The notes beneath the pieces are model-generated. The model did not search any database. It worked only from the letters and a program-made list of their open reading frames with translations, and was not told the DNA's origin. Of a stretch of 64,000 nucleotides of DNA, positions 22,059 through 44,300 are shown piece after piece. Source of the DNA: Legionella spiritensis. GTDB taxonomy: Bacteria > Pseudomonadota > Gammaproteobacteria > Legionellales > Legionellaceae. The translations under genes were made by a program, and so were the position numbers. The stretch spans positions 1,204,501-1,268,500 of the forward strand of contig NZ_LT906457.1 in assembly GCF_900186965.1 (NCBI RefSeq), in the 5' to 3' direction. Within the stretch, counting starts at the first letter, position 1. Each line of letters starts with the position of its first letter.

Positions 22059-22096
22059 ATCATTAGGGCGTGTCCTCATTCTATTTCATTTTGACA

Positions 22097-22123
22097 GTCA
22101 TGCCCGCGCAGGCGGGCAACCAT
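22097..22123 (+). repeat. Left palindromic arm of the GIY-YIG cassette
   Basis: The arm reads GTCA, then the 18-base palindrome at 22101-22118 with a four-base GCAG loop, then ACCAT. The right arm at 22437-22463 is its perfect reverse complement. Confidence 0.85.
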
Positions 22124-22139
22124 TTATGGATTGGCACTA

Positions 22140-22433
22140 ATGGAGGAAAAGCAATATTATGTTTATATATTAGCCAGTAAAAAATATGGAACTCTTTATA
22201 CCGGCGTAACAAGTAACCTTGTGCAACGAACTTGGCAACATAAGGAAGGTTTGGCTGAGGGATTTACCAAAAAATATAATATCCACCACCTGGTTTATTA
22301 TGAAATTCACTCTGAGGTCTATGAAGCAATAACAAGAGAGAAACGCATAAAAAAGTGGAAGAGACAGTGGAAAATAAACCTGATCGAGCTAAACAATCCT
22401 CAATGGCTTGACTTGAGCATTGGATTATTTTGA
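22140..22433 (+). CDS. Single-domain GIY-YIG endonuclease (UPF0213-like)
   Basis: The 97-residue protein from ATG 22140 is one GIY-YIG domain. YVY at residues 7-9 and YTG at 20-22 form the name-giving motif, R30 is in the catalytic arginine position (NLVQRTWQH), and E67 (TREKRIKKWKR) is the conserved metal-binding glutamate. The open frame reaches back to a TTG at 22131, but ATG 22140 starts at the usual family N-terminus. The family is related to UvrC and homing nucleases and cleaves DNA in known cases. The role of such stand-alone members is largely unknown. The placement between palindromic arms suggests that they are its substrate. Confidence 0.85.
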   Translation: MEEKQYYVYILASKKYGTLYTGVTSNLVQRTWQHKEGLAEGFTKKYNIHHLVYYEIHSEVYEAITREKRIKKWKRQWKINLIELNNPQWLDLSIGLF

Positions 22434-22436
22434 TGG

Positions 22437-22463
22437 ATGGTTGCCCGCCTGCGCGGGCATGAC
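22437..22463 (-). repeat. Right palindromic arm of the GIY-YIG cassette
   Basis: ATGGT, then the 18-base palindrome at 22442-22459 in inverted loop orientation (CTGC), then TGAC. It begins three bases after the nuclease stop codon. Confidence 0.85.
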
Positions 22464-22686
22464 AGATTTTTTTGTCATGTACAGGGCGAGAAATTAAATT
22501 GGTACTGTTTTTTTATTTTTTATCTGTTATTATGTTCGACCGTTCTTTTATTTCTGATATCCCAAATTTACTGTGGATATTTTTTTATTCAATCCACTCT
22601 CAAATTCTGAATATTCTTTCTTTCGTTCTTAAAAACCTTATCATATAGGGCTTTTTCAATCGGGTTTGATTTTTCCTTATTTTTTA

Positions 22687-26737: not shown

Positions 26738-26853
26738 GATGATGTTGTTGGATTAAAATAAAGATGGTACCTGATAACGAGTCTGTTTAAAACGATCATG
26801 AGGTTAAGGGCAGACCAACCGCCTGTTTTGTTTCACTTGAATCCAAGTTGTGT

Positions 26854-27175
26854 CTTCCCCGCGCAGGCGGGGATCTATTCCAATTATGTCATGCTGGAGT
26901 TAGACCAGCTCAGTCTTCCCCGCGCAGGCGGGATCCATTCCAATTATGTCATGCTGGAGTTAGACCAGCCCAGTCTTCCCCGCGCAGGCGGGGATCCATT
27001 CCAATTATGTCATGCTGGAGTTAGACCAGCCCAGTCTTCCCCGCGCAGGCGGGGATCCATTCCAATTATGTCATGCTGGAGTTAGGCCAGCCCAGTCTTC
27101 CCCGCGCAGGCGGGGATCCATTTTCAATACAATACCTCACTTCGTTTGATGGATGGGTCCCCGCCTGCGCGGGGA
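26854..27175. repeat. Tandem array of five palindrome units plus one inverted unit
   Basis: Units of 60-61 bases start at 26854, 26915, 26975, 27036 and 27097. Each has the palindrome TCCCCGC-GCAG-GCGGGGA (one G short in unit 2) and a nearly identical 42-base spacer. The array closes with an inverted palindrome at 27158-27175 in the context ATGGATGGGTCCCC. Because the spacers are copies of each other, it is a tandem duplication, not a CRISPR array. The rest of the gap 26738-27393 has no gene; it should hold promoters for the divergent neighbours, but none is clear. Confidence 0.9.
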
Positions 27176-27393
27176 AGACACAATTTCTGTACTGAAAATA
27201 TTATTCATTTAGTACAAAATCGTATGATCTTGTCCTTAGGTTAAGGGGGACGTACACGATATTTTTACAGACGTGTACAGGTGAAACAGCGGGTGTTCAA
27301 TCCGCCTGATAAACTTCTGTAAATTACCGGCAACTCTGCTAAGATTGTTGCATTCGTTCCATGCAATAACGCGTCACTCATTGAGGGTTTGTT

Positions 27394-36973: not shown

Positions 36974-37068
36974 TGCCTCGTCAAGATTGAATTTACGGGT
37001 GTGATCACCTGCCTTGCATTCATCTTTGTACGTTTTTTTGATGTAAAAATGCTCAAATTAGCCCTGCT

Positions 37069-37239
37069 AGTACTGTTTCCATTTAGTTTTGACAGGTAGC
37101 ATTGCACAAAGTGTGCATTTCTTGTCATTCCCGCGCAGGCGGGAATCTATGCCTGATATAGCACAGAGCCAATTTAGCCATAGATTCCCGCCTGCGCGGG
37201 AATGACAGGCGCCTGTCAAAACTAAATGGAAGTGGTACT
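37069..37239. mobile_element. Inner miniature element, copy 1 (with palindrome doublet)
   Basis: Terminal repeats AGTACTGTTTCCATTTAG... at 37069 and the inverted AGTACCACTTCCATTTAG... ending at 37239 agree in 24 of 27 bases. The centre holds two inverted palindromes. A second, shorter copy is at 41199-41313. No gene inside; it would need a transposase elsewhere. Confidence 0.8.
37123..37207. repeat. Palindrome doublet inside the inner element (REPIN-like)
   Basis: Two perfect 29-base inverted arms (37123-37151 and 37179-37207), each containing TTCCCGC-GCAG-GCGGGAA, flank a 27-base loop. The arms have the same plan as those of the GIY-YIG cassette: GTCAT, palindrome, then ATCTAT-like bases. 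Confidence 0.85.
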
Positions 37240-37384
37240 GGTCCTGCGCCTTTTACATCAAAAAAACGTACAAATCGGAACGAAATTCAGGCGCCAACCC
37301 GTAAATTCAATCTTGACGAGGCACTAGGCTCTGTGTACTTATCTTTTGTCCGCTGCAAAAAGGCGTATGATTTGTCCCTTTTTT

Positions 37385-41123: not shown

Positions 41124-41198
41124 GTAGCCCGTAAGGAGGCCTTCGGCCGTATTGCGGGTTTCATTTCAATATTGTGCCAAGAGAGCAGGTGAGTGCCT
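41124..41198 (+). repeat. Long hairpin repeat GTAGCCCG, copy 3, truncated
   Basis: It begins as copy 2 (GTAGCCCGTAAGGAGGCC) and follows copy 1 in its centre (GAGAGCAGGTGAGTGC), then stops exactly where the miniature element at 41199 begins. The rest of the repeat was removed, so the element arrived in or after it. Confidence 0.7.
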
Positions 41199-41313
41199 AG
41201 TACCACTTCCATTTAGTTTTGACAGGTAGCATTGCACAAAATGTGCCATTTCTTGTCATTCCCGCGCAGGCGGGAATGACAGGCGCCTGTCAAAACTAAA
41301 TGGAAACAGCACT
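41199..41313. mobile_element. Miniature element, copy 2 (with single palindrome)
   Basis: It has the same terminal repeats as 37069-37239 (AGTACCACTTCCATTTAG at the left; inverted AGTGCTGTTTCCATTTAG at the right) and the same GTAGCATTGCACAAA segment. It carries one palindrome (41259-41276) instead of the inverted doublet, so it is 56 bases shorter. Flanks CTAG and CTAA fit a YTAR target. Its right end overlaps the mfd stop codon. Nothing else was found in the gap 40917-41311. Confidence 0.8.
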
Positions 41314-44300
41314 AATGTTCCGTTATTTGCAAATCACCATCGGCGAGCTTCATTAAAAGGGTTTTGATTTCGTGGATTTTTTCTTCGGTATTGATACTGT
41401 CGAGTGTAAATCGCAGTTTTGAGGGGCCATCCAGTTTGTAGCGTGCCGCTTGCAGCTGGATGAGCTTAATCAGCGAACCGGCATTAATTTTTGGTTGTTC
41501 CCCGAATTCAATTTTACCTTGCTGTTGTGCGGCGTTAATCCTGTTGATGCCCAACCTGGCAGCCAGCAATTTTAACTCGGTTACCAGCAGCAAGTGCTTG
41601 ACCGGTTGCGGAAGCAGGCCGAACCGATCAATCATTTCTATCTGGAGTTCACGCAATTGTTCCCTGCTTTGGGCATTGGCGATACGTTTGTACAGGATCA
41701 ATCGGGTATGAATATCCGATACATAGTCATCCGGGATAATGGCGCTGATCCGCAAGTCTATCTCGGGACCTTGCTGCGAGGGCATGGCCAGCTCGGGCGT
41801 TTTCCCCGCTTTCAGATCCCTGACGGCTTTATCCAGCAGATCCATATACAGATTAAAACCTATGGCCTGCATGTTTCCGCTTTGTTCCTCCCCGAGCAGT
41901 TCACCGGCTCCGCGAATTTCCAGATCATGAGTAGCCAGGGTGAATCCGGCGCCGAGGTCTTCCAGCGAAACAATGGCTTCCAGACGTTTTTTGGCGTCAG
42001 GCGTCAGGGATTTTTCATTGGGCGTCAGCAGATAGGCGTAGGCTTGATGATGGGAGCGACCAACCCGGCCTCTGAGCTGGTGCAGCTGTGCCAGACCGAA
42101 TTTGTCGGCGCGGTCAATAATGATGGTATTGGCTGTCGGAATATCAATACCCGTTTCAATGATGGTCGTGCAGACCAGCACATTAAAACGATGGTGATAA
42201 AAATCCGACATGATTTTTTCAAGTTCCCGCTCGCGCATCTGACCGTGCGCACTGCTGATTTTGGCTTCGGGAACCAGGGTCTGTAAATCGAGGCAAACCC
42301 TTTCAATGGTCTGAACATTATTATGCAGATAAAAGACCTGGCCGCCGCGCAAAATTTCCCGGAGTATGGCCTCTCTGAGCATGGTATCGTTTTTCTCCTG
42401 CCAGAATGTTTTAATGGCCAGACGTTTGGCGGGAGGCGTTGCAATTAACGAAATGTCACGGATCCCCGCCATGGCCATGTTCAAGGTACGCGGAATAGGG
42501 GTGGCGGTCATGGATAGAATATCAATATGAGTTCTTAATGCTTTAATATGCTCTTTTTGTTTGACGCCAAAACGGTGTTCTTCGTCAATAATCAGTAAAC
42601 CCAGATTTTTAAACTGGATCTGTCTGGAAAACAGTTTATGCGTGCCAATAACGATATCGGTCTGCCCATTTTGCAGGGACTGCAACACCTTGTCTGATTC
42701 TTTCGCGCTGCGAAAGCGTGATAACAACTCAATATTAACGGGAAATTCCGCGAAACGATCACGAAATGTTTCAAAATGCTGGCCTGCCAGCAATGTTGTG
42801 GGAACCAGAACACATATCTGTTTACCGTTTTGTACGGCAATAAAGGCGGCTCGCATGGCAACCTCGGTTTTGCCAAAGCCCACATCACCGCAGATCAGTC
42901 GATCCATGGGACGGGAAGACTGCATGTCACTAATGATTTGTTCGATGGCCCCTTGCTGGTCGACTGTTTCCGTGAAGGGAAACCCGCTGGCAAAGCGTTG
43001 ATAATCCTGGTCGTGAAACTGGTATTCATAGCCTGGTTTTGCTTCACGCCTGGCATAAATTTCCAGCAATTCAACGGCCACGTCATGGATTTTCTCGACG
43101 GCCTTGCTTTTTTCTCTCTGCCACTGATCCGTCCCGAGCTTGTGCAAAGGGGCGTGTTCACTATCCATTCCGGTGTATCGGGTAATATAATGCAAGGAAG
43201 TCACAGGGACATAAATTTTATCGTCACCGGCGTATTTCAATACCAGAAACTCGTTAACGGTTCCATTGCTTTCCAGGGTTTTCAGGCCTTGATAGCGTCC
43301 TACCCCAAACTGCAGATGAACAACCGGGGCATCGATGCGAAGTTCCGCAAGATCCCGGATAATCAGGTTCGGGTCGATGGTTTTCTGGCTGCTGCGGCGT
43401 TGGGGGACAGCCTGTTCGCCAAATAATTGCGCCTCAACGATGATAGCCAATTGTTGTTCAATCAATTCGCAACCATAGATTAACGGCCCGGTCGTGATGT
43501 TGAACACACTGTCGATGTCGTTAAGAAACGCTTGCCAGGACGGTTGGATTTTCGGATGTATTCCACTTTGTTTCAGCAAATCGAGCAAGACTTCCCGCCG
43601 TCCCGGGCTTTCCACAACCAGCAGATATCTTCTTTCCGGTTGATTAAGATAGCCTACCAGGTTATGCAGCGGCTGTTGATGCTGCCGCTCAATCGGCAAT
43701 GACGGCGCTTTATCAATTTTAAAATTCAGCAGGGCGCCTTTTTTATCCACAGGTTTGTGGAAACAGCGGATTTTCTGAAATTGATTGGTGTGGGTCAGTA
43801 ATTCAGTCGGGGTGATAAAACAGGTCTGAGGCGTTAAAATCGGACGGGTGACGTCGTAGTGACGTTGTTCGTAACGATGGATCAGTTCCTGCCAGAATTG
43901 TTCTCCCCGTTCAGGAATATCCTCAATGAGTAAAACATGCGCCTGGGCCGGGAGATAATCAAAAATAGTGGCTGTTTCCTGGAAAAACAGGGGTAAGTAG
44001 TATTCAATTCCTGACGGGGCCTGACCATTCGTGACCGCTTCGTAAACAGGACACAACCCCGGGTTTCCTGAAAACATTTCCCTGAACGTGCGGCGAAACC
44101 GGGTAATACTTTCCTCATTCAGGGGGAATTCGTGAGCGGGTAATATTTCAATGTCCGTAATTTTTTTAATGGTGCGTTGCGTTTCCGTATCAAAAAGACG
44201 CAGGCTATCGACGATGTCGTCAAACAATTCGATACGAAACGGTTGTGTGCTGCCCATAGGATAGACATCAATGATGGAGCCGCGGACGGCAAATTCGCCA

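Follow-up and report, generated by a model that had tools for sequence, protein, structure and literature searches.

The 64,000 nucleotides of Legionella spiritensis DNA analysed here (contig NZ_LT906457.1; the whole stretch is called the window) contain a unit of 367 nt in which a gene for a small GIY-YIG nuclease lies between two inverted repetitive extragenic palindromes (REPs), an architecture that can be written REP> GIY-YIG gene <REP. The unit and its immediate flanks, one of which resembles a miniature inverted-repeat transposable element (MITE), are made up as follows:

22097..22123, + strand: left arm, a REP of the CGTC superfamily with tag GTC, 7-bp stem TGCCCGC, loop GCAG and tail CCAT
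22140..22433, + strand: GIY-YIG nuclease gene, 97 aa from the ATG at 22140 to the stop at 22433, or 100 aa if the start is the TTG at 22131
22437..22463, - strand: right arm, an identical REP, inverted so that both tags face outward
22064..22096, + strand: left outer flank, similar to the terminus of a larger MITE that encloses further REP pairs in this genome (none of 200 shuffles scored as high)
22464..22484, + strand: right outer stretch, AGATTTTTTTGTCATGTACAG, found again past the right arm of L177-L179, which are related copies, and flanking L139 on both sides

The coordinates and the Pfam match confirm what a preliminary description of this DNA had reported, a 97-residue GIY-YIG gene between exact inverted arms. 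The arms are 27 nt each, 100% complementary and separated by 313 nt; each contains the 18-nt hairpin TGCCCGC-GCAG-GCGGGCA in the layout ATGCCCGC-GCAG-GCGGGCAA-CCA, in which the two outermost bases do not pair. Throughout the window the tags on REP copies are TGTC or AGTC.

To which repeats are these arms related? PMC3733652 describes a superfamily of REPs with the tag CGTC, often TGTC or CCTC, a tail that is mostly CCA, a stem of 8-9 bp that nearly always starts with AT and a loop of 4-5 nt; it includes dRS3 of Neisseria and RPE-4 and RPE-6 of Rickettsia, and in 2013 it was reported there from 5 phyla, apparently without a dedicated transposase. The window hairpins belong to this CGTC/TGTC-tagged superfamily: the stem, loop and tail of the arms agree with the description save for the mismatched outer pair, other loci agree with it fully, and the unpaired tag across loci is mostly C/TGTC, which should be read as a criterion rather than a finding because our detectors demanded GTC. 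The trait that fails is the missing transposase, for here a GIY-YIG gene is associated with the REPs; as that trait was a negative finding of PMC3733652, we have revised it rather than taken it as grounds for exclusion.

The window protein matches Pfam GIY-YIG, and PF01541 only, with 54.5 bits against a cut-off of 22.6 (E 1.5e-14). In an alignment of 55 family members Y20, G22, R30, H34, E67 and N86 are invariant and Y9 is nearly so, and we take the catalytic roles of these columns (Y, YIG, R, H, E and N) to be those of I-TevI. The C-terminal Asn is invariant in all 55; PMC1564403 treats this residue as a mark of the UvrC/homing lineage that Slx1 does not have. Weak matches to the group I intron endonuclease model TIGR01453 were obtained for 42 of the 55 members, the window protein not being among them. 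UPF0213, the name used in the preliminary description, is only a distant relation; the best match by sequence to a solved structure is the UPF0213 protein 1zg2 (E 1.8e-5). In the phages searched nothing matched the window protein at E <= 1e-8, and the defence, phage and Rfam libraries gave no match either. For the two closest relatives, nonsynonymous divergence (dN) is 0.041 and 0.064 and synonymous divergence (dS) 0.72 and 1.62, giving dN/dS of 0.057 and 0.040; the ratio is 0.04-0.07 in the five closest unsaturated pairs, beyond which dS is saturated. To judge from these ratios the nuclease is under purifying selection.

The arrangement is not peculiar to this locus. Our first sample consisted of the best 80 of at least 532 relatives from a scan of genome contigs, and among these 80 the nearest named relatives of the window gene are from Legionella species. 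After eight of the 80 were dropped for flanks that were too short, 72 loci could be searched for the REP motif, with shifted windows as the control. REPs on both sides with their tags outward were found at 35 of the 72 loci and in 0 of 1,122 shifted windows, and at least one flanking REP at 62 loci and in 32 windows; orientation was strongly biased, 45:5 upstream and 46:8 downstream. The two-armed units, 35 in number, span 345-448 nt with a median of 368 and represent 14 named phyla; no phylum is assigned to seven of the 72 loci. These motif counts are too low because the regular expression misses arms of the window type, in which the outer pair is mismatched, and arms with long loops, and inverted-repeat scores were therefore used for the other arm counts. 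By that measure inverted arms are present at 40 of the 76 loci whose flanks were long enough, versus 5 of 479 shifted windows. A second sample, mostly Pseudomonadota genomes with ten plasmid-collection records, had no exact DNA in common with the first and, once nine duplicates were removed, showed inverted arms at 84 of 110 unique loci as against 65 of 1,091 swapped left-right pairs. The expectation that such genes would sit between arms beyond chance was thus borne out. Arms were present in none of nine small GIY-YIG genes that do not belong to the family, of which one came from the window's genome and the other eight from REP-rich genomes.

Mapped over the family tree, the armed state changes 47 times compared with a shuffled mean of 56.4, and 1 of 500 shuffles was as low. 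The arms look ancestral and often lost, on a tree that has few columns and many open forks. We considered the arms as a clade marker and dropped the idea, as they are scattered over the tree. Covariation of the arms (43 double-sided cells; 0 of 500 shuffles) was set aside as circular because the 25 arms added had been chosen by a hairpin filter.

If the enzyme reads its own arms, would each copy of the gene be expected to carry a hairpin of its own? We compared arms among 81 elements from 31 genomes with at least two fetched family genes. Left arms scored a mean of 23.7 against their own right arm and 10.3 against the arms of other elements in the same genome; the own arm was the best match in 63 of the 81 elements, tied in three and was worse in 15, and the observed sum of own-arm scores was reached by 0 of 10,000 within-genome permutations. 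In one genome (G301) the five fetched family genes have five different hairpins, two of them identical over the first 14 nt, and the genome of the window itself carries another family gene, located at 2,581,342, whose arm is of a different type, CGTCATCCCGAGCGTAGCGAGGGATCTC. By this comparison the type of hairpin goes with the individual nuclease copy, much as the preliminary description had foreseen.

The link is also visible among whole genomes. We surveyed 396 Pseudomonadota genomes at least 95% complete, counting one CGTC pattern and scoring the family gene at E <= 1e-20; since the pattern covers one stem type only, genomes with other arms are scored as REP-poor. The family gene is present in 39 of 54 genomes with at least 10 REPs and in 73 of 342 others (odds ratio (OR) 9.6, p 4e-13), and at the level of taxonomic families in 23 of 31 versus 19 of 62 (p 1e-4). 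Y1_Tnp, the domain of the REP-associated tyrosine transposases (RAYTs), shows no link with REP-rich genomes at the same threshold of at least 10 (OR 1.24, p 0.47), and at the loosest cut of at least one REP gives an OR of 1.99 (p 0.002); this control is coarse, as PF01797 also matches IS200-type enzymes. The sole Y1_Tnp match in the L. spiritensis genome (G000:C1:891173-891496, locus L013) is bordered by a different repeat of the GTAG type, GTAGCCCGCCAAGGAGCGCAGCGGATTGCGGG, so that there are two REP systems in one genome. A RAYT as spreader of the CGTC REPs was consequently rejected for this genome, and across the 396 genomes there was no clear association.

Sites without the gene were found in sister strains and species of Legionella, Sphingobium and Shinella, as had been predicted. 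The epimerase-like gene adjoining the window unit has orthologs of 78-79% identity in four sister species (G106, G110, G111 and G112), where the nuclease gene is missing beside it and a solo REP follows. The gene is not fixed at one locus: in the same four species a family gene lies between genes that, from their translations, we take to be comEA and mreB, and to its right there is a tagged REP, an imperfect one in G106, with more tandem REPs in G110 and G111; in G105 and G107 it is at another location, alike in both. In seven further genomes of the genus, among them that of the window, a script search of the 1,150 nt before mreB found no tagged CGTC REP, and the gene has no match there; in G103 this region contains two hairpins that are untagged and end in a CCAG tail. 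On Sphingobium plasmids the whole unit lies between fnrL and fixJ in MM7A, TYG42, TYG43, TYG71, MM15, TYG73 (reading frame broken) and TYG46, and it is missing from that site in TYG64, TYG74, TYG72, TYG65 and S. herbicidovorans. Gene-less sites vary, some having a palindrome and some neither gene nor palindrome: TYG64 has one collapsed palindrome, TYG74 an imperfect one, TYG65 another, untagged hairpin and S. herbicidovorans nothing. In Shinella, gene and REPs are both present in WSC3-e, WSD5-1 and HZN7 and both missing in H4-D48 and S. sumterensis. At the gene-less sites of these last two, TYG72, TYG65 and S. herbicidovorans, a script search found no GTC-tagged CGTC REP. Such comparisons give presence and absence without direction, and loss is possible in each case.

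REPs without a gene are plentiful in the L. spiritensis genome. The window contains 11 occurrences of the core CCCGCGCAGGCGGG, in the two arms and at the nine further places counted in the preliminary description (six at 26858-27173, and at 37130, 37187 and 41261); none of 100 shuffles of the window contains it. There are 41 exact cores in the 3.35-Mb genome, and 115 related palindromes of the form CCCGCNNNNGCGGG as compared with two of the reversed pattern. Among 100 of the 115, neighboring palindromes are exactly 57 nt apart in 38 pairs and 341 nt apart in one, which is the window unit. The gene-less copies in the window form three features:

26852..27179, no strand: gene-less REP array of five direct copies at intervals of about 60 nt, followed by an inverted copy
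37124..37206, no strand: gene-less, REPIN-like REP pair (REPIN, REP doublet forming a hairpin), tags outward, cores 57 nt apart, within a MITE
41255..41281, no strand: collapsed REP, a single palindrome tagged at each end (GTCATTCCCGC-GCAG-GCGGGAATGAC), within a MITE

A gene-adjacent REP array, with a spacing of about 125 nt, lies 3′ of the family gene in sister genomes G110 and G111. Collapsed palindromes tagged at both ends were also seen in L007 (1495-1520) and L409 and, imperfectly, in L408; they look like a fusion between the outer halves of a pair of inverted REPs and may be a scar, a deletion product or an empty target. The MITE copies in the window, at about 37067-37245 and 41197-41315, enclose REPs and have ends like CTAGTACTGTTTCCATTTAGTTTTGACAGG, and other copies in the genome terminate in GGGCGTGTCCTCATTCTG. 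We compared the window unit with 28 REP contexts of its own genome, from 30 places taken as loci out of the 115. The left flank has the outer sequence common to these contexts, and the right outer flank was equaled by 3 of 200 shuffles. Of the inner ends, the left is similar to those of gene-less REP pairs (2 of 200 shuffles as high) and the right has no match (36 of 200), which makes it less likely that every gene-less pair arose from the gene unit by simple deletion.

A major question arising from these observations is what the nuclease does to the repeats around it. Comparison of sequences shows a fixed architecture in many phyla, a copy-specific hairpin, purifying selection and presence or absence at orthologous sites, and we lean, if only by a little, towards the view that the GIY-YIG nuclease is the cognate processing enzyme of CGTC-tagged REPs and spreads them. 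The nuclease would recognize its own hairpin, single-stranded or extruded, and would nick next to the GTC tag of one arm or of both; host replication or repair could then complete the copying, of the whole unit in cis and of gene-less REP pairs in trans. We are evenly divided over a broader proposition, namely that the stand-alone GIY-YIG domain is the missing mobilizing enzyme of the whole CGTC REP superfamily. It would constitute a second REP/REPIN system, not related to RAYTs by descent and spread over 14 or more phyla; every nuclease copy would bear and read a hairpin of its own, and the dRS3-, RPE- and MITE-like repeats of a great many bacterial genomes would have been left behind by it.

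Several observations weigh against the nuclease being the enzyme that spreads these REPs. GIY-YIG enzymes are known to hydrolyze DNA and are not known to join ends. At ten of the 72 loci neither side has a REP; among the 14 closest copies (L066-L078 and L139) only four have both arms and five contain stops; and the four sister-species copies lack a tagged left REP, having on that side an untagged terminator-like hairpin or none. The REP pairs of the window genome sit in a larger MITE, and another transposase may have multiplied them. In G074 and G070 a larger repeated unit, presumably an insertion sequence (IS), carries most copies, namely 18 of the 19 fetched from the first and 11 of the 12 from the second, and we rejected high gene copy number as proof of self-mobility in these two genomes for that reason. 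Lastly, the association between REPs and nuclease anticipated in the preliminary description held only in part: REP-rich genomes tend to carry the gene, but 15 of the 54 lack it at E <= 1e-20 (G250 has a match of 2.8e-18), and in 14 of these 15 searched with Pfam GIY-YIG, six give only open reading frames of 615-714 aa, the size of UvrC. From these genomes it follows that REPs can outlive the family gene or spread without it.

Could the REPs instead be the target of the nuclease? The chief rival explanation is homing, in which the nuclease cuts gene-less palindromes, above all the collapsed form, and repair copies the gene in, the REPs being spread by other means. Homing stays a real rival because gene-less sites sometimes retain the palindrome: a collapsed one occupies the place of the unit in gene-less Sphingobium TYG64 and, imperfectly, in TYG74, and a solo REP without the gene marks the site of the window unit in the four sister species. 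The weak matches of 42 of 55 members to the intron endonuclease model and the invariant Asn of the UvrC/homing lineage point the same way. However, the script found no tagged CGTC REP before mreB in the seven species or at the five gene-less Shinella and Sphingobium sites, and the collapsed form is equally well explained by deletion across the shared 8-nt ACCCCGGG. Furthermore, a homing gene normally destroys its target site, whereas here intact hairpins remain on both sides of the gene. We regard homing as possible but rather improbable.

Another candidate for the spreading of the REPs is the MITE. If the outer MITE and an IS transposase multiplied the REPs in this genome, the GIY-YIG gene would be a passenger that entered one copy, as the outer sequence shared by the 28 REP contexts with the left flank of the window unit and the carriage of the gene within a larger unit in G074 and G070 might suggest; but units bounded by REPs only in other phyla, and arms tied to the gene copy, are left unexplained, and we think this unlikely. 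That the arms are mere terminators, mRNA-stability elements or passive neighbors, REPs collecting beside short genes, has very little to recommend it: REPs are frequently downstream of genes according to PMC3733652, but here upstream arms equal downstream ones in frequency and orientation, the pair occurred in none of the 1,122 control windows, none of the nine other small GIY-YIG genes is armed and no terminator-like site was found at the window locus.

Some further copies deserve mention in their own right. Among the G074 and G070 copies (L146-L176), those 18 of 19 and 11 of 12 share the upstream part of the larger unit, the right end of which is ..TTGTCAACACGCCCTA in G074. Near position 1500 of loci L285 (G108) and L286 (G109) are gene-less junctions consisting of the right end of the unit, a short spacer and the left end, a reversed order to be expected from tandem copies or from a circle. 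In Neisseria gonorrhoeae (L239; NZ_CP119140, chromosome-sized though filed as a plasmid) an open, unannotated family gene lies amid dRS3-like repeats, and the repeats adjoining it point in a non-standard orientation.

If the nuclease is indeed the cognate enzyme of these REPs, the result would be a mobile system that runs on a GIY-YIG nuclease only some 100 residues in length, with a specificity that seems to shift along with the hairpin, and such a nuclease could help in the study and use of structure-specific DNA cutting. With a named candidate gene and a matching hairpin in each genome, the origin of CGTC REPs becomes directly testable. We found no report joining GIY-YIG genes to REPs in the openly available full-text literature, preprints and most subscription journals being outside the scope of that search, and the term GIY is missing from the main text of PMC3733652, PMC12306157, PMC6006769 and PMC8266576.

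How does the unit compare with known systems? Its arms share with CGTC REPs (Di Nocera 2013) the tag, an 8-bp stem starting AT, a 4-nt loop, the CCA tail and oppositely oriented pairs, although CGTC REPs are described in PMC3733652 as being without associated transposase genes. An insertion sequence is a mobile element with terminal inverted repeats around a transposase gene; of the unit, inverted ends and presence or absence at sites were observed, and it has no known transposase. UPF0213 and bacterial Slx1-like proteins (PDB 1zg2, 1ywl) also consist of a single minimal GIY-YIG domain, but they are distant in sequence, and the nine other small GIY-YIG genes are without arms. The family resembles GIY-YIG homing endonucleases of the I-TevI type in its catalytic domain with C-terminal Asn and in the weak TIGR01453 matches, but differs from them in the inverted hairpins that flank the gene and in the small size of the protein, which at 97 aa has only the catalytic domain according to Pfam, without a NUMOD DNA-binding domain. 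A further parallel is with RAYT/TnpA-REP, an enzyme that cleaves single-stranded REP, and its GTAG REPs, REPINs and REPtrons, where a small enzyme gene also lies between tagged hairpins and gene-less pairs are dispersed. Unlike those systems, the gene matches PF01541 only, making the enzyme GIY-YIG and not HUH/Y1, the arm tag is GTC and not GTAG, many genomes have several gene copies and arm types, and the genome's own Y1_Tnp gene has a separate repeat. By the criteria of enzyme and tag, then, the unit would appear to work like a REPtron but is not one.
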